From: an uncultured Oscillospiraceae bacterium
GTDB lineage: Bacteria > Bacillota > Clostridia > Oscillospirales > Oscillospiraceae
NCBI GenBank assembly: GCA_949841465.1
Contig: CATKZW010000002.1
Coordinates: forward strand, 1 to 37,960
Reading direction: 5' to 3'
DNA: 37,960 bases
Of the stretch, positions 14,946-34,128 are shown piece by piece (position 1 is the stretch's first letter; every line of letters starts with the position of its first letter). The translations under genes were made by a program, and so were the position numbers. Under the pieces are notes generated by a model. The model made no database searches, was not told the origin of the DNA, and saw only the letters and a list, made by a program, of their open reading frames with translations.

Positions 14946-15407
14946 TTAAGAGGGATTAGTTGATACGACTGTTACATTCCCGTCCTCAACATAAACATCC
15001 GCAATTATTTTTGATAATTTGTTTTCTGCATCATCTTTTGCTCTGACAAAAGCCTTTACCCGAAAATGTCCGTCATGATCAAATGTATAAACTAACGTTC
15101 CGTCCGTTTTGTTATACATAATTTTGTCAATTGTCTCTTTTTTCTCGTCGTCAATAATATACCAGGCATACTCCACCAGGTCAGGCTCATAGCTGTTTTT
15201 AAACGTGACCTCATTATCATTCTGGCTGATAGATACATCCTTTGGCGTAAATTTCAGTATCATACTTTTATCATTTTCGTTTTGCTGCTGTGAGTTTGTG
15301 GCATCACCGACCTCTTGGCTTGCTTCACTGTCAGCATTGTACGTGCAGCCTGTTAAAAGCAGGAGCATCACCAGTATAGCGATGGCTGATTTCTTTGTTG
15401 TTTTCAT
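14946..15407 (-). CDS. Small lipoprotein with a YYY/PKD-like beta domain
   Basis: The 153-residue protein has a lipoprotein signal ending in LLTGC (Cys21), a Ser/Gln/Asn-rich linker (about 22-46) and one small beta-sandwich-like domain (50-145). The pattern YAWYIIDD, then LVYTF, then HFRVKAFVR closely resembles the N-terminal domain of the ABC permease of the same locus (FAFYVYRDG, then VYTFKVFIR). Such Ig-like modules usually bind sugars or other proteins. I infer a glycan- or exporter-associated lipoprotein on the outer face of the membrane. It is the last gene of the locus, 67 bases after the first lyase gene, with a GGAGG site before the ATG. Confidence 0.7.
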   Translation of the reverse strand: MKTTKKSAIAILVMLLLLTGCTYNADSEASQEVGDATNSQQQNENDKSMILKFTPKDVSISQNDNEVTFKNSYEPDLVEYAWYIIDDEKKETIDKIMYNKTDGTLVYTFDHDGHFRVKAFVRAKDDAENKLSKIIADVYVEDGNVTVVSTNPS

Positions 15408-15474
15408 ATTTTCAAGTTCCTCCTCTATTCATTATGAAGTGTCATTTTGCGAACATTTGTTCTTTTTGCTTCTA

Positions 15475-17361
15475 TCATAAAAGCACGATTGTAGTAACAA
15501 TTTGCACCGCACCTGCGGGACATTGGCTGTCTACCTTCAGCAGAGAACCAATCTTTGGTTCTTTCTCTCCTTCAAACAGCCAGGTATAATAGGGATCGCT
15601 GCCCTCGCTGCCGCCGGTAACAGCAGACAGCTCGACTTGCTCAGCAAGGGAACTGGAAACCGTGACCTGCGCCACTGCGGCATCGCCCCGCAGGAGCAGC
15701 CAGCCGCCGTCGGTTTCCTGTACCTCAATTCCTTCCGCGAGGTGATGCAACAATGTACACTTGCTGGCTTCCTTCACCTCCAGGTCGTCTGTAATGGTCA
15801 CAACTCCGTTTCCCTTATCATAAGCCAGGGTCCGCTCCTGTTTCACATTTTCAAAACGTGTCTGAACTGCGGAAGCCGTTTTTACTGGAGAATCCATATC
15901 ATATGAGGTGATCTTTGTGTTATACGCCGCATCAGTAATCGACTGTGACCCAGACGCGCCAAAGGTAACCGGAAACGCCTGATCATCCACACAGAGGACA
16001 TTATGCGCATAGCCGGAGTAGGCATGTTTGGTCATTTCATGAGTGTAGTTATAATCTCTGTTCCCGGCCTCTACAAACAGGTCGCCTTTGTGGTAAAGTA
16101 TGAAGCTCAAATCATCGCCGTGCTTATGCGCCCTCGAATGCGTAGACGCCATAAATAAGAGATAGGTTGACTCCTCCGGCGTGTCTTCCCAGGAACTGCG
16201 CATAACGGCATAGCCCCCTTGCGGGAATACGATATCAGCCGGTGGCTGAACGCCCGCTGTTCCACCCGATGCCACATAATTAAATTCCGGATTACTATAC
16301 TGCAAACCGACCAATGGTGAATATCTGCGGATGCTGTCTCCGATGGAAGGCCAAGAATTATCCGGCTGTACGATCATCGCCAGATACACCCCCGTTTTCT
16401 CATAAAGATCTGCCAGCCATTGTGCATATTCGGAATCAATTTCGGAGAAAATAGCGCTGAACCGCAACATCTTTATGGCTACGTTTCTTTGATAATCTGG
16501 GGAGTGTTCTGTATGAACACCATCTTCAGTAAAGCAAAATTCAAAGTACTCTCTGGAACGCTTTGCGGCCAAATCTAAATACTGCTGACGCAAGGGCTCC
16601 TCTGCCAGCAGCAGTGCATAAGCAGTCAGCCCCAAATCCTGATACATTCCATGATTATGACGCTTTTTGTAGAAGGACTCCTGAGCAAGCAGATCAGCCT
16701 GTTCCGCCAGAGATTCTCTAATCCTTTCTCCGTCCTCGGGAGTAAAGTCTTGTTCCCACCGGGAAAAATACCAACTCATGCGCAGGACTCGACGGGCAAC
16801 TGAATCGTCATTCCATGCCCACTTGTTGTCAAAATCAATGGTCGGATTGCTATTGACCCAATCCACGATAAAGTCCATAATCAGTTTCGTATATGCCTCA
16901 TCCCCGCTGTCAACATAAGCAGAATAGGATATATCCAGAAAAAGAAAGCCATGCATTTGGTAGCAAAAGCTGGTATCTGTATCCAGATACTTGGCGCAGC
17001 TCCAGTCATAGGGAACTGTGATTGGGTTGTCATTCTTTCCAGTTCCATTAATAACATTTGCATAGGCTTTATTGCTGCTACTAAGGATCTCCTTCTCCAG
17101 TTGTTTTTCCCATTCTGTTAAAAATTCCTTGTTGCTGCTTTCAAGCGTTTCCGACGCAAACAGTTCTTCTTCTTTTGGTAAGGATTCATCGGCGACCGGT
17201 GAGGACTCGACCTCACCGGTCGTCCAAGCGATGCTTGGACGACAACAGCTACTAAGCCCCCCTAACAAAGAAAAAAATATAAATAAAGAAATTGGGATAA
17301 GAATATTATGGTTACGCACCCAACATTTCCCCACTACGTTCTTTTTTGGGCTTTCTTGCAT
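15475..17361 (-). CDS. Heparinase II/III-type polysaccharide lyase lipoprotein
   Basis: The 628-residue protein has an N-terminal signal with lipobox LSSC (Cys39) and a Glu/Ser-rich linker (45-95). It then has an alpha-helical toroid domain (about 115-340) with NHGMYQD (236-242) and EHSPDYQ (285-291), and a C-terminal beta-sandwich starting with HSRAHKHGDDLSF (408-420) and VEAGNRDYNY. This is the heparinase II/III fold, in which His and Tyr residues remove a proton from uronic acid and cleave the chain by beta-elimination. The substrate is not known. The neighbouring WecB and WecC enzymes suggest a ManNAcA-containing polymer. It would be anchored outside the membrane. Residues 34-60 are encoded by a 77-bp block shared with the next lyase. 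Confidence 0.83.
   Translation of the reverse strand: MQESPKKNVVGKCWVRNHNILIPISLFIFFSLLGGLSSCCRPSIAWTTGEVESSPVADESLPKEEELFASETLESSNKEFLTEWEKQLEKEILSSSNKAYANVINGTGKNDNPITVPYDWSCAKYLDTDTSFCYQMHGFLFLDISYSAYVDSGDEAYTKLIMDFIVDWVNSNPTIDFDNKWAWNDDSVARRVLRMSWYFSRWEQDFTPEDGERIRESLAEQADLLAQESFYKKRHNHGMYQDLGLTAYALLLAEEPLRQQYLDLAAKRSREYFEFCFTEDGVHTEHSPDYQRNVAIKMLRFSAIFSEIDSEYAQWLADLYEKTGVYLAMIVQPDNSWPSIGDSIRRYSPLVGLQYSNPEFNYVASGGTAGVQPPADIVFPQGGYAVMRSSWEDTPEESTYLLFMASTHSRAHKHGDDLSFILYHKGDLFVEAGNRDYNYTHEMTKHAYSGYAHNVLCVDDQAFPVTFGASGSQSITDAAYNTKITSYDMDSPVKTASAVQTRFENVKQERTLAYDKGNGVVTITDDLEVKEASKCTLLHHLAEGIEVQETDGGWLLLRGDAAVAQVTVSSSLAEQVELSAVTGGSEGSDPYYTWLFEGEKEPKIGSLLKVDSQCPAGAVQIVTTIVLL
17183..17259. repeat. 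77-bp double-palindrome block, copy 1
   Basis: The block holds a 12-bp stem (17193-17204 with 17211-17222, loop ACTCGA) and an adjoining 10-bp stem (17220-17229 with 17233-17242, loop GAT). It lies inside the coding sequence, from the lipobox to a few residues beyond it. The copy at 19182-19258 differs at about nine positions, and several of these keep the stems intact. The 10-bp stem loop reads GAT here and ATC there, the reverse complement. Confidence 0.9.
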
Positions 17362-17422
17362 TATTAATTTCCACTCCCTTTCTAAAATTTTTTATCAAAA
17401 AAGTTATTGGAATAATGCTTTT

Positions 17423-19360
17423 TTAATTTTCGCGCAACTTTATCATCTGCTCATTGTTTTCATTATCCATGTACCAAAAGGCTTTCTCATCGTCATTCCA
17501 ATTAAATTGGGCAATATCAATATTTCTTCCATTTTCATCTTCAATTGTAATCAAAGTAACAAATTTTGTAGTTTCAGCAGTTTCTGAAAACCTTATTGAA
17601 TATATATAATCAACCTGCCCTGTTTTGGGTGAATATTGTCCATAGGGTGTTCCAGCCTCTCCTTTCAGTACCTCTGATGATGTATTATTTCTAAGCTGCT
17701 TTATTCTCACAAAATAATCTGTATCAGCAATTTGCATGAGGGCCTCATTATCCATAGCCGATATTATCTTCATATCTGGTCCACATTGAAAATTTTGAGT
17801 ATACTTGTGACTATTTTGTGACACGCATTCATCAACCAACAATATGGCTTCCTTAAAATTAATAAAGTGCCGAATAAGATCCGCATCCTCAAAATAATTG
17901 TTAATGCCCAATACATAATCCAACGGTTCATTTTCTGATAAAGTATAACTTACAATTCCTGCCTTTCCCGGCTCATTCTTCTTTGCGTAATATGTCTTAT
18001 CATCAATTGAAATAGCATTATGACCAGCAGCAGAAGTTAAATATCTTCTCAAACTATTGCTGACATATCCATAAAAGCCCGGATCAACAAAGATATCATG
18101 ACCTTTTGCATAGTATTGAAATGAATTATCATCATCCTGTTTGTGGACAACTGATAGAAATCCACTTTTAAACATTGCCCATGAAGAATCCTCAAATCCA
18201 TCTGCATCCCATGTTTCTCTTGCGATATAGTACCCTGCCTTTGGAAATATAAAACTTGTATCTTTAGGTTTTACACCCTGAGTTCCTTTCGATGTAACAT
18301 ATTCTAAAATGCTGCCATTGCTTCCCGTTGTTTCACTATATACTGTTACAGATGTTTCGCCGTGCCCGGATGAAACTGAATTTGGTTTAATCATCAATCC
18401 TTCTATGTTCTCACTGATTTTTAACTCTTCCAACTTATTCTTTCCCCAATCGTCATCATAGGCCAACAGAAAGCTGATAATATGGCTATATAAATCCTTA
18501 TTATATATCTGATAATTAAAACTGTTTTCCGTACTTATCATTTCATCTGTAAATTCAAAGTCCCATTGCTCTTGAAGTCTTTCTTTCGCGAGAGAAACCA
18601 GCTCATCAGATTTGTCATTATTAAGGAAATATGCGGCAAGTATTAATGCTCTGTCCTGCATAACTCCGTGGTTATGATTCTTATAATAGCAATTTTCATC
18701 GCATAATTTATCTATATGAAATTCAATCAGTTCCACTATTTCAGCTATGCCTTCTTCATCGAAGTACCCATGTTCAATTCCTGCAATAGCATAATATACC
18801 AGATTGTCTGTTCTCATTGCCATTCCATGGTGATCCCATACAAATACATTATTTTCCGAAATTTCTTTATTAGCTTCGTACGTTCTCCAGCTTCTTATAA
18901 AATCAGTCGCTAAGTCCATATATTTTTCATTATTTGTTCTATCATACGCACAGCTTAAAAATAAAACCGGCTGAAGCCCTTGAAGGTTCAGCTGAAACGT
19001 AGTTGGTAACGTTCCTACTTCCATATTCCAGTCAAGGCTATTCAAATTTTTATCGTCATATTCAGGTCTATCAGCCCGTCCTACACAGAGTTTACCATTG
19101 ATTAGATCACCTGCAAATTCCTCGCTTCTTTCTGTTGAAAGCCATGTGATACTGTTCTTGAGCTTTTCAATGTTGGACAAAGATTCATCGGCGGCCGGTG
19201 AGGACTCGACCTCACCGGTTGTCCAAGCATCGCTTGGACAACAACAGCCACTAAGCCCATTTAATAAGGAAAGTGCCAGAAGAAGAGCGCCAAGAGAGCG
19301 AATTTTCCATTTATATCTCCACCGTTGCCCTGTTACCCTCTCTTTTTCTATTTCTTTCAT
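17423..19360 (-). CDS. Second heparinase II/III-type polysaccharide lyase lipoprotein
   Basis: The 645-residue protein has a lipobox LSGC (Cys39), a short linker, a helical toroid domain with KNHNHGVMQDRA and STENSFNYQ motifs, and a C-terminal beta domain with VVHKQDDDNSFQYY and FVDPGFYGYV. The layout equals that of the first lyase, but the sequences are strongly diverged outside residues 31-60, so the two probably cut different linkages or ends. In the beta domain, HKQDDD replaces the HKHGDD of its partner. The base composition is strikingly A+T-rich, with codons such as AAT, ATA and AAA, unlike the locus upstream. This points to a separate transfer. It lies between the MBOAT gene and the first lyase gene. 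Confidence 0.8.
   Translation of the reverse strand: MKEIEKERVTGQRWRYKWKIRSLGALLLALSLLNGLSGCCCPSDAWTTGEVESSPAADESLSNIEKLKNSITWLSTERSEEFAGDLINGKLCVGRADRPEYDDKNLNSLDWNMEVGTLPTTFQLNLQGLQPVLFLSCAYDRTNNEKYMDLATDFIRSWRTYEANKEISENNVFVWDHHGMAMRTDNLVYYAIAGIEHGYFDEEGIAEIVELIEFHIDKLCDENCYYKNHNHGVMQDRALILAAYFLNNDKSDELVSLAKERLQEQWDFEFTDEMISTENSFNYQIYNKDLYSHIISFLLAYDDDWGKNKLEELKISENIEGLMIKPNSVSSGHGETSVTVYSETTGSNGSILEYVTSKGTQGVKPKDTSFIFPKAGYYIARETWDADGFEDSSWAMFKSGFLSVVHKQDDDNSFQYYAKGHDIFVDPGFYGYVSNSLRRYLTSAAGHNAISIDDKTYYAKKNEPGKAGIVSYTLSENEPLDYVLGINNYFEDADLIRHFINFKEAILLVDECVSQNSHKYTQNFQCGPDMKIISAMDNEALMQIADTDYFVRIKQLRNNTSSEVLKGEAGTPYGQYSPKTGQVDYIYSIRFSETAETTKFVTLITIEDENGRNIDIAQFNWNDDEKAFWYMDNENNEQMIKLREN
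19182..19258. repeat. 77-bp double-palindrome block, copy 2
   Basis: This is the same block as at 17183-17259. The stems are CCGGTGAGG/CCTCACCGG (19195-19203 with 19210-19218) and TTGTCCAAGC/GCTTGGACAA (19219-19228 with 19232-19241). The C:G pair of copy 1 is replaced by T:A in copy 2, a compensatory change. It is GC-rich inside an otherwise A+T-rich gene. Confidence 0.9.
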
Positions 19361-19378
19361 TAGTAATCCATGCCCTTT

Positions 19379-20845
19379 CTAAAATTGGAAGTAAATAAAT
19401 GTACCCGTTTTCCCGTATACACCGAACAAAATGATTGTCAGCAGCGCAGCGTAATAGACTACCCAGCGGACCGGCAGACAGCAGTTTTTCAGTGACGTCC
19501 ACAAATCCTTCCGTTCTGACACCCAATCGGCCAGATACAAGACAGCAATTAGTATCCAGGAAAGAATAAACTCTTCTTTACCCACAGCCTTTGCCAGTGC
19601 CTGAATGGCGTCAATATTCCAGTCCTGCCCCAGCCGGGAAAAAATCACCATAGCATCCGCAAAAGAGTTTACTCGAAAGAACCCCCAGGCAAACGCCACA
19701 AGGCAGAACGTAATAAATGTGGACAAGAAGACTTGTATACCGGAATCCTCCTCTATATGAAGAAAGGCACGCGCCTTTCTTTTCCAAGTCAATGTAAACT
19801 CGCCGATCAACTGGTACAATCCGTGCAGAGCACCCCAGATCACGAATGTCCACGCCGCCCCGTGCCACAGACCGCTGACCAAAAACACAATCATGATATT
19901 AAGCGCCCAGTCAGCTTTCGAAATCCGGTTGCCGCCCAAGGGGATATACAGGTAATCTTTAAACCAGGTGGAAAGGGAAATATGCCATCGCCGCCAGAAT
20001 TCTTTGATGGAGCGGGCCAGATAGGGATGGTTAAAGTTGCGCATTAATCGGAATCCCAGCAGCTTTGCACTGCCAATGGCAATATTTGAGTATCCGCCAA
20101 AGTCGCAGTAAATCTGAAAGGTAAAAAACAGCGTGGCAATGAGATAGGCCGGACCGCCGTAAGCCCCTGCATCATTGTAGACAAGGTCCACGGTCTTAGC
20201 CAGCCGGTCCGCAATGACCAGCTTCTGGAACATGCCCAGTACGATCAGCATCAGCCCGTCACGAATTTCCTTCGCGTCCGGAGTATGCACCTCTTCAAAT
20301 TGGGGCAGCAGATTTGTGGAGCGCTCAATGGGACCTGCCACTAACTGAGGGAAGAAAGATACGTACAGCGCGTACTTGCCAAAGTGGTATTGACATGGGA
20401 TGCTCCCCCGGTAGACGTCAATCGTATAGCTCATCGCCTGAAAGGTGTAGAAGGAAATCCCTACCGGCAGTAACGGAGAAAAATCTGGTAAATGGAGTGT
20501 CCATTCCAATTGCTTCATCAAAGCCTGGAAGCTGTCAAGAAAGAAGCCGTAGTACTTAAACAGAATTAAAATAGACAAATTTACGCCAAGTGACAGTGCA
20601 ACTAGACACTTTTTTACGCGAGGCGCTCTTTGGCCGAAACGGTTGGCCTTGTCTATCAGCACACCGGAGGCAAAGGTAACTGCCGTACTCAGCAGCATTA
20701 GCAGCGCATATTTTGCATTCCAGCAGGCATAGAAGAAATAGCTGGCCAGCAGCAGCAGGACCCACCGGAATCGATGCGGCAGCAGGTAATACAGCAAACA
20801 TACGCATGGCAGAAACAGGATATAGGAAAAAGCGGTAAACTGCAT
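19379..20845 (-). CDS. MBOAT-family O-acyltransferase (AlgI/DltB-like)
   Basis: The 488-residue polytopic membrane protein shows the MBOAT signatures FWRRWHISLSTWFKDYLYIP (about 283-302) and SGLWHGAAWTFVIWG with the catalytic-type His328. MBOAT proteins of the AlgI/PatA/DltB branch pass acyl groups, usually acetyl, across the membrane to an extracellular partner that decorates a polysaccharide. The SGNH protein encoded just upstream is the expected partner, as in AlgI-AlgJ/AlgX or DltB-DltD. ATG at 20845 has AAAGGAGG seven bases upstream. The frame can be extended two codons to a TTG that sits in the ribosome-binding site. Confidence 0.92.
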   Translation of the reverse strand: MQFTAFSYILFLPCVCLLYYLLPHRFRWVLLLLASYFFYACWNAKYALLMLLSTAVTFASGVLIDKANRFGQRAPRVKKCLVALSLGVNLSILILFKYYGFFLDSFQALMKQLEWTLHLPDFSPLLPVGISFYTFQAMSYTIDVYRGSIPCQYHFGKYALYVSFFPQLVAGPIERSTNLLPQFEEVHTPDAKEIRDGLMLIVLGMFQKLVIADRLAKTVDLVYNDAGAYGGPAYLIATLFFTFQIYCDFGGYSNIAIGSAKLLGFRLMRNFNHPYLARSIKEFWRRWHISLSTWFKDYLYIPLGGNRISKADWALNIMIVFLVSGLWHGAAWTFVIWGALHGLYQLIGEFTLTWKRKARAFLHIEEDSGIQVFLSTFITFCLVAFAWGFFRVNSFADAMVIFSRLGQDWNIDAIQALAKAVGKEEFILSWILIAVLYLADWVSERKDLWTSLKNCCLPVRWVVYYAALLTIILFGVYGKTGTFIYFQF

Positions 20846-20935
20846 AGTCAATCCTCCTTTGGTGTTGGATATTACAAGAAAGTTTTATATTGATACAGAA
20901 CTTTCCGCCCTGTGCTGATTATGTAACATCCATCA

Positions 20936-22255
20936 TCAGGGTGCATTCACTTTGCTGCTGTTTTGCTTCATGAACGGCAGTGAGAGCTGAATTATTTTCT
21001 TCATTTCTTTGTCATATTGACTGGGAAGCATATCGCAATATAATTGATCGGCTTTTGCGGGGTCCAGTTCCAATTCGCAGAAGTTTTCTTTTGACCAGTC
21101 CTTTACAACCTCTTCTCCAAGACGAAAACGATAGCGTGCATTCTTGTCAAAATTTTCCATCTCGTAGCGATATACTCCCCTTGTATCGGGCAATTGTTCA
21201 ATGGATTCTGTGCGGTAGGCAAACACAGGGCGGTAATCCGGTTCAGGCTGGTCAGGAAGAAAGCCCTGCTCCAAAAACCAGGTGGTAAATTTCACTGCGC
21301 CTCGACGATTCATATGACCGGCATCATAAAAGTCATCCAGATTCAGTCCAATCTCCCGAATGGACAAATGGAAATCCTGCACAAGCCGACAGCATGGGTA
21401 ATCTGCCGCGATTTCTTCAATCCGATTCATGCTGTGAATGAGCCTCTTATTTACTTTAAGCGTAGGAGATGTTAAGATCAGCACGGGAATCTGCCGCCTC
21501 TGTGCAAGTTCCAAAAAGGAAATCAGCGCAGCCTCATTTATTGGGTCAGTGATCTGCTTTTCACTGTCAGATGCATAAAAAGATATCAGCGCATCTTCTA
21601 TCTTCTTGGGTGTGACAGTTCCCCCGGTATAAGTATTTCGAAATTTATAACCACTCACATCAGCGTGTTTATAGCGGTTTACAGCAGGAGCATTTTCCCA
21701 GAGCTTTTCCCAACGCGACCATGTAAATTGTGGCCGAAACAACTGGGAAACACCGAATGGAATATCATTCAAATGCAAAACGCTGCAGGCAGCCCGAATA
21801 CGGTCCATAGGAGATCTCATTCCGTCAATATCCCGATACATATACTCCTGCTTTTCTGTTTGCATCGTCACACGCGTATTCGTAATAATACTATCTGCTT
21901 CCAAAAGGACCACATCCGGCGTATAGCTGTTTAAAACCGTTTTGAAGTTCTCAAGCGTTAAAAACATAGTTTCGCTTGATGAACCCAAAACGCCGCACGA
22001 CAATCCGGTGGATCCAGTGATGATATCCGGGACGTATGCGGTAAAGGCATGAGAGTTTCCCATAATCAGGATATCAGGTCCTTTGCCTGCCTCGATGGTC
22101 TCCCAAACGGTGCAAACTTGAGAATTATCGTAAAAAAGAACGTCTAATGCGTTCAATAGCAGAGCAAAAATCAGAATAAATGCCGCTAAGGCGAGGGCGT
22201 CCTTTTTATGGACGCCCCGCCTTGCAGCTCTATCCTGCCGCTGTAATTCTTCCAT
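20936..22255 (-). CDS. Membrane-anchored SGNH-family acyltransferase partner (AlgJ/DltD-like)
   Basis: The 439-residue protein has one N-terminal membrane helix (about 19-40). Its extracytoplasmic SGNH-like domain has the nucleophile Ser68 in MGNSHAF and the acid/base pair Asp311 and His314 in DAGHMNRRG. This is the layout of proteins that take acyl groups from an MBOAT partner and put them on surface polymers. ATG at 22255 is preferred: it has a GGGGGGAG ribosome-binding site and gives a normal topology. The longer open frame to 22417 overlaps the next gene. It is paired with the MBOAT gene, with about 90 bases between them. Confidence 0.82.
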   Translation of the reverse strand: MEELQRQDRAARRGVHKKDALALAAFILIFALLLNALDVLFYDNSQVCTVWETIEAGKGPDILIMGNSHAFTAYVPDIITGSTGLSCGVLGSSSETMFLTLENFKTVLNSYTPDVVLLEADSIITNTRVTMQTEKQEYMYRDIDGMRSPMDRIRAACSVLHLNDIPFGVSQLFRPQFTWSRWEKLWENAPAVNRYKHADVSGYKFRNTYTGGTVTPKKIEDALISFYASDSEKQITDPINEAALISFLELAQRRQIPVLILTSPTLKVNKRLIHSMNRIEEIAADYPCCRLVQDFHLSIREIGLNLDDFYDAGHMNRRGAVKFTTWFLEQGFLPDQPEPDYRPVFAYRTESIEQLPDTRGVYRYEMENFDKNARYRFRLGEEVVKDWSKENFCELELDPAKADQLYCDMLPSQYDKEMKKIIQLSLPFMKQNSSKVNAP

Positions 22256-22331
22256 GCCTTTTTCTCCCCCCGTAAAAATTGGCGACAGCCTATATGTCCT
22301 ATATGCGCCAGAGGGCACAAGCTGCGGGTAT

Positions 22332-26222: not shown

Positions 26223-26312
26223 AATTTTCCATTCCTTCCCCTATAGGTAATGCAGTTATTTTAATCGACCTGCGTCCTCTCAAAAGTCATTCACAATGAC
26301 GCAAACCCGATT

Positions 26313-27116: not shown

Positions 27117-27124
27117 GCGCCGCT

Positions 27125-28246
27125 TCACTCCAAATCCAAGAACTGGTTCCTGTATTTCACCTGCAGATTGCTGCCCCAAATAATCAGGGCAAAATTGATG
27201 AGCCAGAAAAACAGCATTTTATCACAATGCTGATAGAAAGCCGTCTGATAAAGCAGACTGTCCCGAAATCCATCCACAACATACAGGCATGGGTTGCACT
27301 CCAGCAGGCGCTGGGCCCACACGGGGAGGTTCTCCATGCTCCAAAGAATCGGCGTCAAGTAAAACAGCAGCCGGATCAAAGAGTTTATCAGCTTCTGAAA
27401 ATCAATTGCGACCATGCTCAAGACAGAGGTCACCATCGCAAGCCCGGTAAACAGGACAACAGAATAAAACAAATAGTAGATCAAATTTAGCCAATATAAA
27501 GAGGGAAAGTATCCAAAAAAGAAAAATGTCACCATCAAAATCGCAATCATAATCAAATGGGTGTACAGCGCGATCAAAATTGCCTCCAGGGGCATTGTGG
27601 CGATGGGATAGCGCATTTTCAAGGCGGTGATCCCCTTGCTCCGTATCGCTCCCGCCCCGCGGGTAATACACTGGCTCATAAAAAACCAGGGAATCAAGCC
27701 TGCCAGCATCCAGATCAGATACGGATAGCCGTCTATGTCGCGCCGATTGCGAAGGCCGATGCCAAATACAAACCAATAGGTCGCAATTTGAATCAGCGGG
27801 TTCAAAATGTTCCAAAAGCTGCCCAAATACGCGTCTTGGTTCAGGACTTTGTAGCTGAACCTGGAAACACGCCACATCCGTTTCCGGTTGACCCAAATCT
27901 CCTGGGCGACTGCCCCGACGTTCCTCAGCCAATCGAAGCGCCGTCGGGGCGGCTCAATATTGCAGCAAATCTCTCTGCTGCTCTCAAACAGGTACGGGGG
28001 CGACAGCTGTGAGCGCTTGTTCCCCTTTGCGTCCCGAATAAAAACTTTAAAGGTATAAACGCCCGGCTCCTGGGCCCAATAGGAAATCTCCGCCTGCTTT
28101 TGATACGCATAGTGCCCGATGTCCTTTCCGTCGCGGTAGACGTAGAAGGCAAACGTGCATTTCTGGGGCGGATTTTCACAGACGCACCGGATTTCGTTGA
28201 TGCCGCGAAGCATCGTACGTATGCAAAGCTTTTCTTTGATAGCCAA
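27125..28246 (-). CDS. ABC-2 polysaccharide exporter permease with N-terminal beta domain
   Basis: The 373-residue protein has an unusual first 100 residues: a beta-rich module with FAFYVYRDG and VYTFKVFIRDA. A typical Wzm/TagG permease of about six membrane helices follows, from LGSFWNILNPLIQIATYWFV on. Partnered with the ATPase encoded next, it should move an undecaprenyl-linked polysaccharide out of the cell. The N-terminal module is cytoplasmic by normal topology, since no signal peptide precedes it. It resembles the domain of the small lipoprotein at the end of the locus. It could bind the glycan end or the ATPase. The gene lies 12 bases downstream of the wecB-like stop. Confidence 0.88.
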   Translation of the reverse strand: MAIKEKLCIRTMLRGINEIRCVCENPPQKCTFAFYVYRDGKDIGHYAYQKQAEISYWAQEPGVYTFKVFIRDAKGNKRSQLSPPYLFESSREICCNIEPPRRRFDWLRNVGAVAQEIWVNRKRMWRVSRFSYKVLNQDAYLGSFWNILNPLIQIATYWFVFGIGLRNRRDIDGYPYLIWMLAGLIPWFFMSQCITRGAGAIRSKGITALKMRYPIATMPLEAILIALYTHLIMIAILMVTFFFFGYFPSLYWLNLIYYLFYSVVLFTGLAMVTSVLSMVAIDFQKLINSLIRLLFYLTPILWSMENLPVWAQRLLECNPCLYVVDGFRDSLLYQTAFYQHCDKMLFFWLINFALIIWGSNLQVKYRNQFLDLE

Positions 28247-28258
28247 ACCCCTCCCTGC

Positions 28259-29380
28259 TCAATGCCCGAATTCCGTCTCTGGAGAGGCACTGCCCTCCAA
28301 AAAGTCTGCGATGCGCCGGCAGGCATGCCCGTCGCCATAGGGATTTGAGGCATGGCTCATGGCCTCATAGGACTGCCGGTCCGTCAACAGGGTCTTAAAC
28401 GTCTCATAAATGGTTTCCTCCCGGGTGCCCACCAGCTTCAGCGTTCCCGCCTCAATTCCCTCCGGCCGCTCCGTCGTATCACGCATGACCAAGACAGGCT
28501 TTCCCAGGCTCGGGGCCTCCTCCTGGATGCCGCCGGAGTCCGTGAGGATCAGATAGGACCTTGCCAGGAGGTTGTGGAAATCCAGCACCTCCATCGGCTC
28601 TATGATACGGATGCAGTCGTCGCCGCCAAAAATGTCCGCCGCAGTCTGGCGAACCACCGGGTTCATGTGGATCGGATACACCACCTTCACATCCGGCGTC
28701 TCGTCGGCGATGCGCTTGATGGCCCGGAACATCTGGCGCATCGGCTCGCCCAGATTTTCCCGCCGGTGCGCCGTCAGCACAATCAAACGGCTCCCTTCCG
28801 CCCAGTCCAGAACGGGGTGCTCATAGCGTTCCCGCACGGTCGTCCGCAGCGCGTCAATCGCGGTGTTGCCGGTGACGAAAATGCTCCGAGGGTCCTTCCC
28901 TTCCTTCAGCAGGTTATTCTTGGCCATTTCCGTGGGCGCAAAGTTGTATTTCGCCACAATGCTCACGGCCTGCCGGTTGAACTCCTCCGGGAACGGCGAA
29001 TCCAGGTTATAGGTGCGCAGGCCGGCCTCCACATGGCCCACCGGAATCCGCAGGTAGAAACAGGCCAGCGCCGACGCAAATGTTGTGGAGGTATCGCCGT
29101 GCACCAGCACCACGTCCGGGCGCTCCTTTTCCAGCACTGCTTTGAGGGACAGCAGCACGTCGCTGGTGACGTCAAACAGGGTCTGCCGCTCCTTCATGAT
29201 GGACAGATCGTAATCGGGCGCCACCTGGAACGCGTCCAATACCTGGTCGAGCATCTGCCGGTGCTGCCCTGTTACGCATACCACCGTTTCCAGGCTTTTC
29301 CGGCTCTTCAGCTCATTTACCAGGGGACACATCTTGATCGCTTCCGGACGGGTCCCAAAAACCAGCATAATCTTTCTCAT
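28259..29380 (-). CDS. wecB: UDP-N-acetylglucosamine 2-epimerase, non-hydrolysing
   Basis: The 373-residue cytosolic enzyme interconverts UDP-GlcNAc and UDP-ManNAc. Family motifs are clear: VFGTRPEAIKM at the start, HGDTSTT, HVEAGLRT, LTAHRRENLG and LTDSGGIQEEA. ATG at 29380 has AGAAGG nine bases upstream, and two earlier in-frame ATGs lie too close to that site. Its product feeds the dehydrogenase encoded 54 bases upstream, so together they supply UDP-ManNAcA. In some Gram-positives MnaA also feeds wall teichoic acid synthesis, but no TagA homologue is seen here. Confidence 0.95.
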   Translation of the reverse strand: MRKIMLVFGTRPEAIKMCPLVNELKSRKSLETVVCVTGQHRQMLDQVLDAFQVAPDYDLSIMKERQTLFDVTSDVLLSLKAVLEKERPDVVLVHGDTSTTFASALACFYLRIPVGHVEAGLRTYNLDSPFPEEFNRQAVSIVAKYNFAPTEMAKNNLLKEGKDPRSIFVTGNTAIDALRTTVRERYEHPVLDWAEGSRLIVLTAHRRENLGEPMRQMFRAIKRIADETPDVKVVYPIHMNPVVRQTAADIFGGDDCIRIIEPMEVLDFHNLLARSYLILTDSGGIQEEAPSLGKPVLVMRDTTERPEGIEAGTLKLVGTREETIYETFKTLLTDRQSYEAMSHASNPYGDGHACRRIADFLEGSASPETEFGH

Positions 29381-29434
29381 TGATTGCATCCTTCTTCCCA
29401 ATATAGGCCGTAAGCCCTGTCTGCCGCGCCTGGC

Positions 29435-30658
29435 TTACAGATGGTGGACAGACATGTCTTTGCAGATGTATCGTGTATCCAAAACAATCTTGCCGGCCAG
29501 CTTTTCCATGCTGTTTTTAAGCTCGCTGTGGCCAACCATAACCACCACCATATCCACATCACCCAAAAACGCGTCCAGCTCATGGTACTGATTTTCCACA
29601 ATATCATGGGTGACCCAGGGGTCATATACCTTGACGCCCCTGGCCAGATGCCGCTTCATGCTTTCCAGCAGCTGCAGGGTCGGGCTTTCCCGCACATCGT
29701 CCACGTCTTCCTTATAGGTCAGGCCGTAGAGGCCCACCCTGCCCACGTCCGCAATGCCGTGCTCGTCCATGATCTCAGAAATCCGGCTGAGCACATGCTC
29801 CGGCATGCCGTCGTTAATCTGGCGCGCCTGCTTGATCAGGTTGGCCAGATTGGGGTAATCCCCCACCAGGAACCAGGGATCGACGGAAATGCAGTGGCCG
29901 CCGACGCCGGGCCCCGGAGACAGGATATTGACGCGGGGGTGCTTATTCGCTATGCGGATAATTTCGTGGACATCCATCCCGTCCTGACGGCAGATCCTGG
30001 CCAGCTCATTCGCGTAGGCAATATTGATGTCACGATACGTATTTTCAACCACCTTGGTCATCTCGGCGGTGCGGATATCGGTTACGACGATGTCGCCCGT
30101 GCAGAAGGAGCTGTACACGGCCTTGACCTTTTCCCCAATGGCCGGGTCGTCCACGCCCACAGTCCGGGAGTTGTGCTCCAGCTCGTAAATCATGTTGCCG
30201 GGGACGATCCGCTCCGGCGTATGCGCCAGATGAATGTCCTTACCGATTTCATAGCCGGCCTCCTCCACAAACGGGCGGATAAACCGGTCGATGGTGCCCG
30301 GCGAAATCGTCGATTCCACGCAGACGATCGAGCCCTTGCGGCATGCGGACAGCACGCACTTCACGGCGTTGATCACATAGCTGGGGTCAATTTTCTTGCT
30401 GAGCTTGTCATAGGGCGTGGGCACCGCGACAATATACATATCCGCGTCAGGATATTCGCAGGAAAACTGGATGCCGCCCTCTACCGCCGCGCGGTACAGC
30501 TCCTCCAGACCGTCCTCCTTGAACGTCACCTGCCCGTGGTTCAGCATGGATACCAGTTCCTGGTTGAAGTCAACGCCGATTACCTCGACGCCGTGGGATG
30601 CCATCATCGCCGCCGTCGGCAGACCGATATACCCCAACCCAATTACACAGACCTTCAT
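29435..30658 (-). CDS. wecC: UDP-N-acetyl-D-mannosamine dehydrogenase-type enzyme
   Basis: The 407-residue NAD-dependent UDP-sugar dehydrogenase oxidises the C6 alcohol to a carboxylate in two steps. The Rossmann motif GLGYIGLP is at 7-14. The catalytic cysteine sits in PGVGGHCISVDP, and TYKEDVDDVRESP lies near the C-terminal domain. Pairing with the WecB-like epimerase favours UDP-ManNAc as substrate, giving UDP-ManNAcA. UDP-GlcNAc dehydrogenases look alike, so specificity is inferred. ATG at 30658 has GGAGG nine bases upstream. Confidence 0.92.
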   Translation of the reverse strand: MKVCVIGLGYIGLPTAAMMASHGVEVIGVDFNQELVSMLNHGQVTFKEDGLEELYRAAVEGGIQFSCEYPDADMYIVAVPTPYDKLSKKIDPSYVINAVKCVLSACRKGSIVCVESTISPGTIDRFIRPFVEEAGYEIGKDIHLAHTPERIVPGNMIYELEHNSRTVGVDDPAIGEKVKAVYSSFCTGDIVVTDIRTAEMTKVVENTYRDINIAYANELARICRQDGMDVHEIIRIANKHPRVNILSPGPGVGGHCISVDPWFLVGDYPNLANLIKQARQINDGMPEHVLSRISEIMDEHGIADVGRVGLYGLTYKEDVDDVRESPTLQLLESMKRHLARGVKVYDPWVTHDIVENQYHELDAFLGDVDMVVVMVGHSELKNSMEKLAGKIVLDTRYICKDMSVHHL

Positions 30659-30727
30659 AAACAAGTTCCTCCATTCTCAAAATTAAAAATATCAATCTAT
30701 TTTCTGAAATAGCTTGCAGCTGAATTT

Positions 30728-30749
30728 CTGCGGCTCAGGCATACCGCAG
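30728..30749. other. Small hairpin in the 117-bp gap before wecC
   Basis: CTGCGG (30728-30733) pairs with CCGCAG (30744-30749) between the CgeB-like gene and wecC. The rest of the gap (30659-30727) is A+T-rich and might hold an internal promoter, but I see no clear -35/-10 pair. Confidence 0.35.
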
Positions 30750-30775
30750 GCGCATGATCCAAAGTACCGGTCACG

Positions 30776-31963
30776 TCAGCCCGGCTGAGGCTGCCTGCGC
30801 GCATCCTCCGGGGGCGGGGCGGCGCCGGACACTATGCCCGCCTCATGGAGCGCTTTGCCCAGCAGCGTGCGGAACGTATAGTTCAAAAATACGCATTTTA
30901 TATTTTCTTCCACGATCTCTCTGGGATTTTCCTCTGAAAATGTTTCCCCCACAAACCAAATCCTCCCCGGGAAGCGGCGGCGCAGGCCCTTTGACTCGTT
31001 GCTGATAATCAGGCGGCCGCAGGCCATGACCTCAATCACCCGCCGCGCAAACATGGTGTCCGAATCCTCTACGGTGTTGACGTTGATCACATACTCCGCC
31101 TCTCTCATCACCTCCCGGACCTTGTCATAGGGAACTCCGCCGGTCACATAGGGGCGGTATTCTTCCGGGTAAGCGCGGTCCTCATTGGGCGTGCCGGACA
31201 TCCGGTCATAAATCACCAGCTTCAGCCCTTTTTCCAGCACCATATCGAAAATCCGGCGCATTGCCCGGCATCGTTCGGAATAGCTCTCATACCAGCTGCC
31301 GAAAAACACTGCCGTCCCCCGGCGGGTCGGCTCCGGCAGCGGGGAAAACAGCTCAGGCGAAAAGCCGAACATCATCAGGTGCACGCTGGGGTGCCCAAGT
31401 GCGCGGTATTTTGGAATGGTTTCCGCCGTGGTTGTCAAGATGTGGTCAAACAGGAGCGCCGTATCAATAAAGCTGCGGGGATAATCGTCAAAGGCCGGCG
31501 TGTCCTCTTTGTTCCAGAACACCGTTGGGATATTTGCGCCGCGGCAGTACCTGAGGACCTGCCGTAGGACAAACCTGTTATCCTGCCGCAGCGTGCAGTC
31601 GCGGAAAATCATGTTCTGCCAGCAGCCCTGGAGCCCTTCCCACGCGGCCTCACAAAACAGGACGTCCGGACGTTCGGATTCCAGGCGGCTGCGCCAGTTC
31701 GACGGCGTCAAATAAACGGCATTGGTCTCCCGCCGCATATTTTCCCAGGTAAACCCATCGCAGATCACCGCGATGCGCAGACCCTCCAGGGCTTTGGGCG
31801 GGCCGTCCCTCCTCCAGGTGGGCCCGCGGTATCCGCAATACGTTCCCCGCACAAAACCGGGAACCTTTTTCAGCAAAAAGACGGCCTCTCGAAAAAAAGC
31901 ATACCGTTTTAAATACCGATGATACCAGCGTTTTAATCTATCCTTCGCCTTCACCGCGCACAC
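30776..31963 (-). CDS. CgeB-like glycosyltransferase
   Basis: The 395-residue protein has a basic N-terminal segment (1-60), then LRIAVICDGF, IPTVFWNKEDTPAFDDY (145-161), MMFGFSPELFSP (197-208), FFGSWYESYSERCRAM (220-235) and FARRVIEVMACGRLIISN. These match, motif by motif, the CgeB-like part of the large fusion protein in the same locus, so the two are paralogous domains. CgeB relatives are GT-B-like glycosyltransferases first known from spore coat maturation. The gene starts with GTG, either at 31963 or at 31954 (which has AAGG upstream). It overlaps the GT2 gene by 13 bases, so translation is probably coupled. The C-terminus (PPPEDARRQPQPG) is low complexity. Confidence 0.8.
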   Translation of the reverse strand: MCAVKAKDRLKRWYHRYLKRYAFFREAVFLLKKVPGFVRGTYCGYRGPTWRRDGPPKALEGLRIAVICDGFTWENMRRETNAVYLTPSNWRSRLESERPDVLFCEAAWEGLQGCWQNMIFRDCTLRQDNRFVLRQVLRYCRGANIPTVFWNKEDTPAFDDYPRSFIDTALLFDHILTTTAETIPKYRALGHPSVHLMMFGFSPELFSPLPEPTRRGTAVFFGSWYESYSERCRAMRRIFDMVLEKGLKLVIYDRMSGTPNEDRAYPEEYRPYVTGGVPYDKVREVMREAEYVINVNTVEDSDTMFARRVIEVMACGRLIISNESKGLRRRFPGRIWFVGETFSEENPREIVEENIKCVFLNYTFRTLLGKALHEAGIVSGAAPPPEDARRQPQPG

Positions 31964-32985
31964 CTTCGCATCTGTTTGCGTCTATACAGCTTTTTCAGGC
32001 TGTGGTAGCTGTCCACCACCCCGCAGAACACCGGCCGCGGCGCATACTTGACCAGCAGGTATTTGCAGCGGGTGCGCTTATCCTCACGCCAGCCCGGCGG
32101 GCGCAGCCCACCCAGCAGGGATGGGAACCACTCCTCTTTGAGGATCTTCCAGTACTGCCTGCGGACGGTTTTGTCGTTTATGGTGCCTACATGCCATATC
32201 AGGAATTCCACGGCCCCATTCAGAAAGCTCCGCTGATACTGTTCCATCAAATCATGCTGCGCCAAAAATGCCTTCACAATGGAAAATGCCTCATACGGCG
32301 CGTCAGGATCGCTGCTGCGGCTGTTGGACACGGAGGCAGGCCGGTTTACCCGGTGGTGAATCAGCGTCCGGTCAAGAACAGTGATGCGCCGCGCGGCCAG
32401 AAGCGAGGGGAATACAAAGGCCAGGTCCTCCGAATTCCTGAGCGCTGGAAATCGAAGCTGCTCCTGCCGGATCAGGCTTGTCCGGTAGAGCTTGTCCCAC
32501 GGCCAGCCATAGGTGAATTGAAAGATATGCTCCGAAATATCCTCCGGCCGGAAGGCCTCTCCGGGCAGCTGGTGGACCTTGAGCATCCAGCCGGAGGGCA
32601 GCTCCCGGTCCCCGTCCGTATCAAATTCCACCGCCCGGCAGATGGTTGCATCGGCTCCGGTCTGCTCGGCTTTCCGGGCCATCAGCTCCAAAAAGTCCGG
32701 CTCAAACCAGTCGTCGGAGTCCAGGAAAATCAAAAACGTCCCTTCCGCCTGCTCCAGCCCGGTGTTGCGGGCTGTGCCGGGGCCGGAATTGGCCTGGGTG
32801 ACGACGCGGAACCTGCTGTCACGGGCGGCGTACTCCTCCAGTATCTGAGGGCTTGAATCGGTCGAGCCGTCATTGACGCAGATGATTTCCAAATCCTCCA
32901 GCGTCTGGGCGGCCAGACTGTCCAGGCACTGGCGCAGATGCCGCTCGATGTTGTAAACTGGGATCACTACCGACACCAGTGCCAA
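31951..32985 (-). CDS. Family 2 glycosyltransferase
   Basis: The 344-residue protein has an N-terminal GT-A domain: VSVVIPVYN, CVNDGSTDSSP, SGPGTARNTGLEQA and the metal-binding FLDSDDWFEPD. The C-terminal half is basic (KKLYRRKQMRRCAR), as in peripheral membrane transferases that extend capsule or exopolysaccharide chains. The sugar added cannot be read from the sequence. It lies six bases after the DUF4422 gene and overlaps the CgeB-like gene. Confidence 0.92.
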   Translation of the reverse strand: MALVSVVIPVYNIERHLRQCLDSLAAQTLEDLEIICVNDGSTDSSPQILEEYAARDSRFRVVTQANSGPGTARNTGLEQAEGTFLIFLDSDDWFEPDFLELMARKAEQTGADATICRAVEFDTDGDRELPSGWMLKVHQLPGEAFRPEDISEHIFQFTYGWPWDKLYRTSLIRQEQLRFPALRNSEDLAFVFPSLLAARRITVLDRTLIHHRVNRPASVSNSRSSDPDAPYEAFSIVKAFLAQHDLMEQYQRSFLNGAVEFLIWHVGTINDKTVRRQYWKILKEEWFPSLLGGLRPPGWREDKRTRCKYLLVKYAPRPVFCGVVDSYHSLKKLYRRKQMRRCAR

Positions 32986-32991
32986 GCTCTC

Positions 32992-33834
32992 TCACCTCTT
33001 CATGGCCTTGATCCGGCTCCGCCTTACGCTCCCCGGCGGCAGCAGCAAATTGACGGCCTGCTTTTTGAGCCGCTCCGCCGGGTCCCCGATAAAATGGACC
33101 CGGGGCAGCTCCAGGGTTTTCAGATCACGGCGGTAGACGGCATAGATCCCCAGCAGCCGCTCCGCCAGGTATCCGTCTACCCGCCGCTCCTGCGCCGTGT
33201 AATTTCCGGTGTCCGCCCGGCGGTCAAATTCCCTCAAAATTGGGAACAGCCAGCTGCAGTAGTCATGAAATGCCTGCTGTTTCATGATATGGATGTTGCC
33301 AAAATAGCAGATCGAACCGGAAAGGTATTGCTCCATGGCCTGCGCCATTTCCGGATGCCGCTCCCGGACGATCCGCTCCGCCAGCTCCAGGTCCCTGCCG
33401 TGGTGGAACGGCGCCTGTGCGTAATGCTCCCGCACCGGGACATGCATATCCTCCCCTTTGGGTAGGATCAGGTCATACCGTGAAATCAGGTCCGACAGAG
33501 CGGCGTACCCCAGCTTGTCCAGCAGGGGGAGCGCAGGCTCCCCCTCGATTCGATAGGGCTGCTTGGCGCTTCTGTCCGGGTAAAGGTAGCGGCGGTAGTG
33601 GAAAAAGCCGCAGCAGTCCGCCCGCACATTTTTCCAGGCCCAGTACTGGGCGGTCAGCTCACAGTAGGAGCGGTTTTCCCGGGAAATATTGTCGCCGGCA
33701 TCATCATGCAGAAAGCCTGGAAAATGGGAATCCGCCAGCGCCGCGCCCACCTGAACGGGGACCAGCAGGGGGTGCTCCGGAACCACCGCCGGCCGGTGGC
33801 AGCAGACAAACAACCTGATATTGGCCACCGCCAT
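32992..33834 (-). CDS. DUF4422 family protein, probable capsular glycosyltransferase
   Basis: The 280-residue protein matches DUF4422, a family found in capsule and exopolysaccharide loci and thought to transfer sugars. Typical motifs are NIRLFVCCHRP at the start, CELTAQYWAWKNV, FFHYRRYL, YDLILPKGEDM, and a C-terminal YAVYRRDLKTLELP. ATG at 33834 is chosen for its GGGAGG site. The frame is open to 34071, but that extension crosses the promoter and has no family similarity. It is the first gene of the glycan locus. Confidence 0.85.
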   Translation of the reverse strand: MAVANIRLFVCCHRPAVVPEHPLLVPVQVGAALADSHFPGFLHDDAGDNISRENRSYCELTAQYWAWKNVRADCCGFFHYRRYLYPDRSAKQPYRIEGEPALPLLDKLGYAALSDLISRYDLILPKGEDMHVPVREHYAQAPFHHGRDLELAERIVRERHPEMAQAMEQYLSGSICYFGNIHIMKQQAFHDYCSWLFPILREFDRRADTGNYTAQERRVDGYLAERLLGIYAVYRRDLKTLELPRVHFIGDPAERLKKQAVNLLLPPGSVRRSRIKAMKR

Positions 33835-33870
33835 TGTCCCTCCCTGCTGATTCATCACAATGAAAAGTAA

Positions 33871-33886
33871 CGGAATTTGCATTCCG
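33871..33886 (-). promoter_or_regulatory. GNRA-capped hairpin in the leader of the glycan locus
   Basis: On the minus strand CGGAAT and ATTCCG close a GCAA tetraloop, in the roughly 95-base leader between the promoter and the first gene. TTACTTTTC follows it. It may be a pause or antitermination site; no ops sequence is seen. This is the only structure I see in the 33835-33934 leader. Confidence 0.45.
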
Positions 33887-33934
33887 AAACATTTGCAAAA
33901 AGACAAAAAGAGCCCTGCCCAAAACGCCCAAATT

Positions 33935-33963
33935 ATTTTAGCATAAAAACAGGGGGTGCGCAA
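33935..33963 (-). promoter_or_regulatory. Main promoter of the glycan locus
   Basis: TTGCGC (33958-33963), 17 bp, TAAAAT (33935-33940) on the minus strand, with a TG one base before the -10 (extended -10). It lies about 100 bases upstream of the DUF4422 gene. All genes from there to 14946 point the same way with small gaps. Confidence 0.6.
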
Positions 33964-34128
33964 CCCTTTTTTGCATGAAGAGGAGACTGTTTCCGGATTA
34001 TCTCGGTCAAATTCAAAGGCTTTATCCTTGTTTTCCCAATCTGCGCCGTGGGGCATGGGTTTTCCTTCCATTTTCTCAGTTCACAAAATGGAAAAAGTAG
34101 ATATCGGATTTCAGATTCCGTTATATAT

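Follow-up and report, generated by a model that had tools for sequence, protein, structure and literature searches.

A mosaic, ABC-transporter-dependent gene block of an uncultured Oscillospiraceae bacterium, predicted to make a ManNAcA-type polysaccharide and encoding two heparinase-fold lipoproteins

The window analyzed here is a stretch of 37,960 nt from an uncultured Oscillospiraceae bacterium (assembly GCA_949841465.1, contig CATKZW010000002.1), in which a block of 13 genes, all on the minus strand, occupies positions 14946-33834. Open reading frame (ORF) calls combined with Pfam, NCBIfam and PDB searches (30 ORFs of the window were given to Pfam) identified, in the order of transcription, a DUF4422 protein, a GT2 glycosyltransferase, a CgeB-like glycosyltransferase, WecC, WecB, an ATP-binding cassette (ABC) permease of the ABC-2 type, an ABC ATPase, a fusion protein of 1296 residues, an SGNH protein, an MBOAT protein, two heparinase II/III-like lipoproteins (lyase B, then lyase A) and a small lipoprotein. 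An initial annotation of the window had described an ABC-exported, acylated polymer of N-acetylmannosaminuronic acid (ManNAcA) with two lyases. The genes that it named, namely wecB, wecC, the glycosyltransferases, the fusion, the ABC-2 exporter, MBOAT, SGNH and the two heparinase II/III lipoproteins, are all present on that strand.

The intergenic gaps within the block range from -13 to 117 nt only, so that a single transcript is plausible. Terminator-like sites (26, against 21.4 expected by chance, standard deviation 4.3) are near the chance level. For four genes the start was picked by ribosome-binding site or position and not by the longest ORF: DUF4422 (33834), permease (28213), ATPase (27116) and SGNH (22255). 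The DUF4422 ORF opens at 34071, and the ATG at 33834 was preferred for its better ribosome-binding site.

The flanking genes are of housekeeping type, among them trmO and a GH3 gene at one end of the block and one for a PP-loop protein at the other (Pfam). The GC content is 0.58-0.72 in the flanks versus 0.35-0.60 inside the block, and the GC content at third codon positions (GC3) declines along the operon: the eight genes transcribed first have 0.61-0.78, and those for SGNH, MBOAT, the lyases and the lipoprotein 0.31-0.59. Because of both patterns the locus looks like a mosaic. The lyase B gene (17423-19360), with 37% GC and a GC3 of 0.31, lies far below its neighbors, which suggests that it arrived recently.

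The pair WecB and WecC, the hallmark of polysaccharides made from UDP-ManNAcA, is present in the block. WecB (28259-29401), a UDP-GlcNAc 2-epimerase, is an equivalog match (TIGR00236, 519 bits versus a cut-off of 210), and WecC (29435-30664), a UDP-ManNAc dehydrogenase (TIGR03026, 6.5e-130), has Staphylococcus aureus Cap5O as its best solved match (371 bits) and stays below the enterobacterial equivalog cut-off (365 versus 459). Given the equivalog match of WecB and the closeness of WecC to Cap5O among PDB proteins, the synthesis of UDP-ManNAcA by these two enzymes is a firm prediction. The transferases encoded upstream are the DUF4422 glycosyltransferase-like protein (32992-33834, 1.9e-67), the GT2 enzyme (31951-32985, 2.7e-40) and the CgeB-like enzyme (Glyco_trans_1_2; 30776-31963, 1.4e-7). 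This last is a core gene of the locus family, 35-43% identical to the gene at the same position in four related loci.

An exporter of the Wzm/Wzt or TagGH type, as found in ABC-dependent glycan pathways, is encoded by the next two genes. The permease (Wzm type, 27125-28213; ABC2_membrane, 6.3e-17) carries an N-terminal immunoglobulin (Ig)-like module (Y_Y_Y, 3.8e-5, under the cut-off), and the ATPase (26313-27116) is of the TagH/TarH type (318 bits with TagH versus a cut-off of 320; 345 bits with TarH, 6jbh). The source genome has two LCP-ligase, two PF04230 (pyruvyltransferase) and 44 SLH matches, and a linkage of the polymer to the wall is therefore possible.

The fusion protein (22332-26222) consists of a methyltransferase domain (residues 33-146, 25785-26126; Methyltransf_11, 5.7e-20), a coiled coil (residues 229-378, 25089-25538) with leucine in 20 of 21 heptads, a CgeB-like transferase and a GT2 module. 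Pfam scores the CgeB-like part below its cut-off, yet this part is 49-51% identical to transferases of two related loci (G043 and G067, see below). The coil of 150 residues would reach 22.3 nm, as computed, and its DNA holds 21-bp tandem repeats (TRF rows within 25258-25511). About 80 residues separate the methyltransferase from the coil, and no kinase family was matched in the fusion by Pfam. An amphipathic membrane helix behind the coil is not claimed: the hydrophobic moment was only 0.06-0.36 over the windows tried. In G782, a genome of the same class, three tandem GT2 modules like that of the fusion were seen (G782:C17, L067 11440-14262).

A fusion of methyltransferase and glycosyltransferase, WsaE, terminates S-layer glycan synthesis in Geobacillus. 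The layout of the window protein resembles that of ORF6 of Klebsiella pneumoniae O7, described as a methyltransferase(-kinase), a coiled coil and two glycosyltransferase modules, in which chain length is set by the coil and the terminator occupies the coil's distal end (PMC11231755). The orthologs named there belong to alpha- and gammaproteobacteria and cyanobacteria, and the word "Gram-positive" does not occur in its main text. For WbdD a coil of about 200 Å (about 20 nm) is reported (PMC5082667), and the WbdD of O8 is described as a simple methyltransferase (PMC3482155). We propose, from these likenesses, that the fusion may serve as terminator, ruler and polymerase in one; such a ruler is of an already known kind, and its setting here would be new.

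Two further genes could encode an acylation pair, the MBOAT member recognized by Pfam and the SGNH member by motifs. The SGNH-type protein (20936-22255) shows by eye GNSH and DAGH motifs and a hydrophobic stretch, read as an N-terminal membrane anchor, and had no family match in Pfam, NCBIfam or PDB sequence searches. The MBOAT O-acyltransferase (19379-20851, 3.5e-31) is of the DltB/AlgI class, with 163 bits against the DltB model, under the cut-off of 375. Together they may O-acylate the chain.

Searches at order level matched the transferase half of the fusion in 5 of 394 genomes (1e-30) and lyase A also in 5 of 394 (1e-15), three genomes, the source included, being common to both. The association of lyase and fusion has P = 4.6e-4 over 393 genomes; counting the congeners G043 and G067 as one raises this to 0.023, and we regard the association as weak. 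At family level CgeB was found in 3 of 300 genomes (1e-60) and in two of the three genomes of the G043 family; the third, G086, had no match. Six loci hold WecC, CgeB, Wzm, Wzt and fusion-type transferases in similar order: the window, G043, G067, G811, G265 and G193. WecB is present in five of them, and in the relatives its gene stands at the far end. Lyases occur in the window, G043, G067 and G811, and none was found by tblastn in G265 and G193; the G811 contig stops about 1.9 kb past its lyase. The fusion of G265 ends in a GT4-type module with a small, separate coiled-coil-like protein beside it, and G193 is similar by eye.

Among named genomes 1 of 20 pattern matches was confirmed, JAFWDJ010000030.1, which is G043. 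At class level the fusion was matched in 2 of 391 genomes and CgeB in 3 of 391, the source included in each. Near the fusion match in G782 lie only weak ATPase and dehydrogenase matches of 22-26%; its CgeB-type gene stands beside a 44% WecC, and G563 has the transferase alone. Neither genome was counted among the related loci.

Other features of these loci were noted. A large fusion in G265 (L062 1439-5575) has, by similarity to G043 proteins, an XcbB/CpsF-like hydrolase, Ig modules and an asparagine-synthase-like part, and in G811 (L081 1888-4524) a hydrolase is joined to the lyase. Phage portal- and terminase-like ORFs, recognized by eye, flank the G265 locus (L069 7166-8431, L062 15325-16992), which may lie in or beside a prophage.

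Lyase A (15475-17361; Hepar_II_III_C, 9.7e-20; lipobox LSSC) and lyase B (Hepar_II_III_C, 2e-17; lipobox LSGC) are both lipoproteins. In lyase B only the C-terminal Hepar_II_III domain is above the cut-off, and lyase A is under the NCBIfam cut-off (60 versus 700 bits). Heparinase III of polysaccharide lyase family PL12 was the best match both of lyase A alone and of a profile made from lyases A and B with the two G043 domains, and the PDB sequences matched at E <= 0.01 consist entirely of lyases, either heparinase III or alginate lyases. The catalytic residues of heparinase III are given as Asn240, Tyr294 and His424 (Table 4, PMC12088678), and in the alignment their equivalents are kept in all six lyase domains of the related loci. 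By domains and by this triad lyases A and B belong to the PL12 class, and beta-elimination is predicted for them.

For phylogeny and motif counts a set of 19 rows was used, comprising 16 of 22 match places together with G067, G811 and G166; short or partial sequences were left out (G008, G038, three of G040, and G050:C120). The six locus domains form one clade (93/98) with two halves, each supported at 100/99: one with lyase A and the two G043 copies, the other with lyase B and the proteins of G067 and G811. Because lyases A and B fall into these two old halves, the pair is no recent duplicate. Recurrence in four of six loci as a single clade supports the proposal that the lyases belong to a system of UDP-ManNAcA supply and ABC export. 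Heparinase genes standing without the rest of the locus, named beforehand as evidence to the contrary, do exist in genomes of the genus (G002, G015, G022, G028 and G031), and the tree places their proteins in other clades, G008 being outside the set. A third Hepar_II_III protein of the source genome (G000:C65:6726-7202) likewise falls in another clade and has an NNWT motif; its 11-kb contig gave no tblastn match to window genes.

Relatives of lyase A were found on 13 plasmid records and of lyase B on seven, Cytobacillus and CP114562 being common to both. The contexts of six lyase A records were read (Leisingera, Paracoccus, Haloarcula, Caballeronia, Cytobacillus and Manganitrophus), and in all six glycosyltransferase genes lie near the lyase relative. 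Five of the stretches contain wecB, wecC or a nucleotide-sugar dehydrogenase gene: Leisingera and Paracoccus carry wecB as well as wecC, Haloarcula has wecB, Caballeronia has wecC at a distance of about 14 kb and Cytobacillus a dehydrogenase, with none in Manganitrophus. On the Leisingera plasmid (L091 82-21575) the heparinase gene stands beside two large glycosyltransferase ORFs, with wecB, wecC, glmM, glmS, glmU and asnB. Since wec-type genes are found in five of six contexts, the tie of such heparinase-fold enzymes to ManNAcA-type synthesis would be wider than the initial annotation had assumed; its view that the system is special to Gram-positive bacteria is not supported, as similar lyases are encoded alongside the two wec genes in Leisingera and Paracoccus and alongside wecB in Haloarcula. 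Our searches of the open-licence literature found no study of heparinase-fold enzymes in sugar-making loci.

The HNHG motif of lyase A (16648-16659), a histidine followed by the neutralizer asparagine that aligns with Asn240, is present in all six locus domains. A histidine before this asparagine is described as required for the alginate activity of GAGase III and as conserved in alginate lyases, although the same residue put into other GAGases conferred no alginate activity (PMC12088678). The motif occurs in 6 of 6 locus domains, whereas of the 13 other Hepar_II_III proteins in the set just 1 has it (P = 2.6e-4, for observations that are not independent, the six being one clade). As a marker of ManNAcA lyases it failed in five of the six named relatives, five of which lie near wec-type genes; only Leisingera has it, the motif having been read and not aligned in these proteins. 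We therefore downgraded it to a feature that fits a manno-uronate substrate without marking one.

The secretion leaders of lyase A (17176-17361) and lyase B (19175-19360) are common to both, with 34 of 62 identical residues at positions 1-62 versus 156 of 507 aligned residues in the remainder of the proteins. Over codons 34-62 the identity reaches 73 of 87 nt. Hydropathy and lipobox, the two criteria used, revealed no signal-like N-terminus in the double lyase of G043, the G067 lyase and the hydrolase-lyase fusion of G811, nor in any of the six named relatives. The Paracoccus protein comes nearest to a signal, with a hydropathy of 1.41 versus 1.87 for lyase B. On the tree, gain of the leader in the window and its loss in the relatives take two changes each. 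We favor gain, because the leaders in the window are near-identical and are absent from the named relatives: the window lyases would be formerly cytoplasmic enzymes that were given a lipoprotein leader and re-routed outward.

A hidden Markov model of the Ig-like module, seeded with eight domains that all come from the G043 locus, matched only two proteins in the window: the permease N-terminus (28010-28177, 3.4e-10) and the small lipoprotein (14946-15407, lipobox LTGC; module at 15009-15191, 4.1e-12). None of 1594 reversed decoys was matched at E <= 1. The window ATPase gave no C-terminal match, whereas the C-terminus of the exporter ATPase carries the module in G043 and G067, as do transferases and lyases there; in the G043 double lyase it joins the two lyase parts (4.7e-8), and it is weak at the C-terminus of the G067 lyase (9e-4). 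An exporter subunit thus bears the module in the window, G043 and G067, and in G265, G193 and G811 it is found on other proteins. The structural model (predicted local distance difference test score, pLDDT, 83.5) is a seven-strand Ig-like sandwich, for which Foldseek returned only generic Ig, FN3 and PKD folds, none at E <= 0.001, which defines the fold class only. The best PDB profile match was a stretch of endoglucanase 2c26 (9.7e-6), its PKD domain. By analogy with the Wzt of O9a, which has a binding module at its C-terminus (PMC3482155), the Ig-like module may bind the polymer.

We give a probability of about 0.5 to the reading that the block makes a wall or capsule polysaccharide that contains ManNAcA, depends on an ABC transporter and is finished outside the cell by acylation and lyase cutting. 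WecB and WecC would supply UDP-ManNAcA, and a lipid-linked chain would be assembled in the cytoplasm by the DUF4422, GT2 and CgeB-like enzymes together with both transferase modules of the fusion. Chains that reach a set length would be capped by the methyltransferase, which is held at the far end of the coil of about 22 nm, and would then leave through the Wzm/Wzt (TagH-like) exporter, which bears an Ig-like module. On the outside the chain would be acylated by the anchored SGNH/MBOAT pair. The lipid-anchored lyases A and B, of different subfamilies, would cut the cell's own polymer wherever its uronate stretches are unprotected, with the Ig-module lipoprotein beside them, for trimming, release or turnover. 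O-acetyl groups shield alginate from lyase, and the acyl groups would probably shield parts of this chain. In the remaining lyase-bearing loci these enzymes would work on the chain prior to export. Action on the cell's own polymer is the best supported role for these enzymes.

Several observations weigh against this reading. The single polarity asserted at the outset stands, with 13 genes on one strand, and the single promoter is no more than a possibility: promoter-like sites number 27 against 21.4 by chance (standard deviation 4.9), which is near chance. Conservation as one three-function system was not borne out either, as MBOAT and SGNH had no tblastn match in the fetched stretches of the other five loci and G265 and G193 are without lyase. 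The window's methyltransferase was likewise seen by tblastn in the window alone. With the methyltransferase and the acylation pair found in one locus of six and the lyases in four, none of the steps added to the core is obligatory. The Ig-like module is on the permease instead of the ATPase, and the exporters of G811, G265 and G193 gave no match to it. The lyases of the relatives look cytoplasmic, from the lack of signal-like N-termini in three other lyase loci and six named relatives, so that action at the surface, as originally supposed, would not be the general rule. The fold model of lyase A (pLDDT 54.3 on a 4-row alignment) was poor and was not used. In addition, partner genes may be absent from the assembly, which is 92.87% complete in 136 contigs.

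The polymer could instead be an S-layer protein glycan, or a pyruvylated wall polymer holding SLH proteins, and not a capsule. An SLH gene adjoins the G067 locus (L060 13000-14190) and others lie about 4 kb from the G265 locus (G265:C24, about 4.0-6.4 kb, L069); PF04230 was found in all five genomes tested, as was LCP (weakly in G193, 24 bits), and comparable systems are described for O-linked glycans of Gram-positive bacteria (PMC3482155). The CsaB-type (PF04230) gene and the SLH proteins of the source genome lie outside the block, however, in which no SLH, PF04230 or O-oligosaccharyltransferase gene was recognized, and G193 has no SLH match. We hold this alternative to be rather unlikely. 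A chance placement of lyases that scavenge host or dietary glycosaminoglycans or alginate appears very improbable: PL12 does include heparinase III and lyase B, at 37% GC, looks recently acquired, but a single lyase clade is tied to WecB/C-ABC loci in four genomes, and in the 30 window ORFs, to which the look for glycosaminoglycan-degrading partners was confined, Pfam recognized neither a sulfatase gene nor one for sugar import.

Dermatan sulfate epimerase performs C5 epimerization on a related fold, and the heparinase-fold proteins might similarly take and re-add the C5 proton, converting ManNAcA to L-GulNAcA within the chain. The biosynthetic context of the lyases, both in the four loci that have them and in the named relatives, is in agreement with such a polymer epimerase, the same base and acid residues could serve either reaction, and a cytoplasmic site would fit modification ahead of export. 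The PDB matches up to E 0.01 include no epimerase, however, and no paper making this link was found in the open-licence literature; we consider it unlikely. Less likely still is a role in chain capping, in which cytoplasmic lyases cut lipid-linked chains and the unsaturated end stops growth. Because beta-elimination leaves an unsaturated uronate on the lipid-linked part, a cut before export would itself be the cap, and the 4,5-unsaturated uronate at the non-reducing end could be read by the exporter's Ig module; in the window a methyltransferase would have taken over capping and the lyases moved outside. This is consistent with the missing signals of the G043, G067 and G811 lyases and the named relatives, and with the Ig module on G043 and, weakly, G067 lyases as on their ATPases. 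By tblastn the window's methyltransferase was not matched in any of the three loci whose lyases look cytoplasmic, Pfam shows no methyltransferase in the G043 and G811 fusions, and the sole locus with the methyltransferase has exported lyases. A strict swap is nevertheless broken by G265 and G193, which by tblastn have neither lyase nor window-type methyltransferase. The comparison covers six loci, with other methyltransferases sought in part of their proteins and signal peptides judged by hydropathy and lipobox, and the open-licence literature yielded no precedent. More broadly, cytoplasmic heparinase-fold enzymes could form an undescribed class that caps or re-shapes (C5-epimerizes) lipid-linked uronate chains, read with the exporter by a common Ig module, the window copies having been re-routed to the surface by a borrowed lipoprotein leader after the methyltransferase ruler took over termination. 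We regard this as a speculative possibility, with the odds clearly against it.

Under the reading of a ManNAcA-type polymer finished outside, the block would be a Gram-positive-type example of the chain-length ruler of ABC pathways, and the coil length should set the polymer length. The recurring neighborhood extends further: heparinase-fold enzymes without signal-like N-termini occur in sugar-making loci, mostly with WecB/WecC-type genes, in Firmicutes, proteobacteria and haloarchaea. Their recurrence and apparent siting inside the cell hint at a further job for these lyases. If they do act before export, their annotation in databases as degradative lyases is misleading, and following such loci could lead to lyases or epimerases with new specificities toward polymers of ManNAcA.

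The closest known systems are those of K. pneumoniae O7 and Escherichia coli O9a (ORF6-O7, WbdD), which share a methyltransferase, a coiled coil (a ruler there and a proposed ruler here) and, in O7, two glycosyltransferase modules in one protein (PMC11231755, PMC5082667), as well as a Wzm/Wzt exporter with a module that binds the polymer there and may bind it here (PMC3482155, PMC11127046). The block differs from them in having no recognized kinase domain, a ManNAcA supply, the module on the permease and not the ATPase, a Gram-positive-type host, and lyases and MBOAT/SGNH genes. With the WsaE pathway of Geobacillus, likened here from description and not from sequence, it shares a Gram-positive setting, an ABC exporter and a methyltransferase-glycosyltransferase fusion; the Geobacillus glycan is a rhamnan without uronate, and we know of no lyases in that pathway. 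Capsules 5 and 8 of S. aureus also use UDP-ManNAcA, with Cap5O as the best solved match of WecC, and are O-acetylated ManNAcA polymers made by the Wzx/Wzy route with a different O-acetyltransferase and, to our knowledge, no lyase. The Pseudomonas alginate system combines, as is proposed for the block, a uronate polymer, MBOAT/SGNH acylation and a lyase; alginate is a synthase-dependent polymannuronate whose lyase AlgL is of PL5, and no synthase (Alg8/Alg44) family was found among the block proteins by Pfam and NCBIfam. The window lyases share Hepar_II_III domains and the Asn/Tyr/His residues with PL12 heparinase III and differ from it in scoring under the NCBIfam cut-offs, in the histidine before the asparagine and in their biosynthetic context. 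The proposal of one distinct three-function pathway is supported only in part: the block is real, a mosaic of parts of known kinds, ABC-dependent and with predicted finishing enzymes for the outside of the cell, and its polymer is predicted to be of the ManNAcA type.

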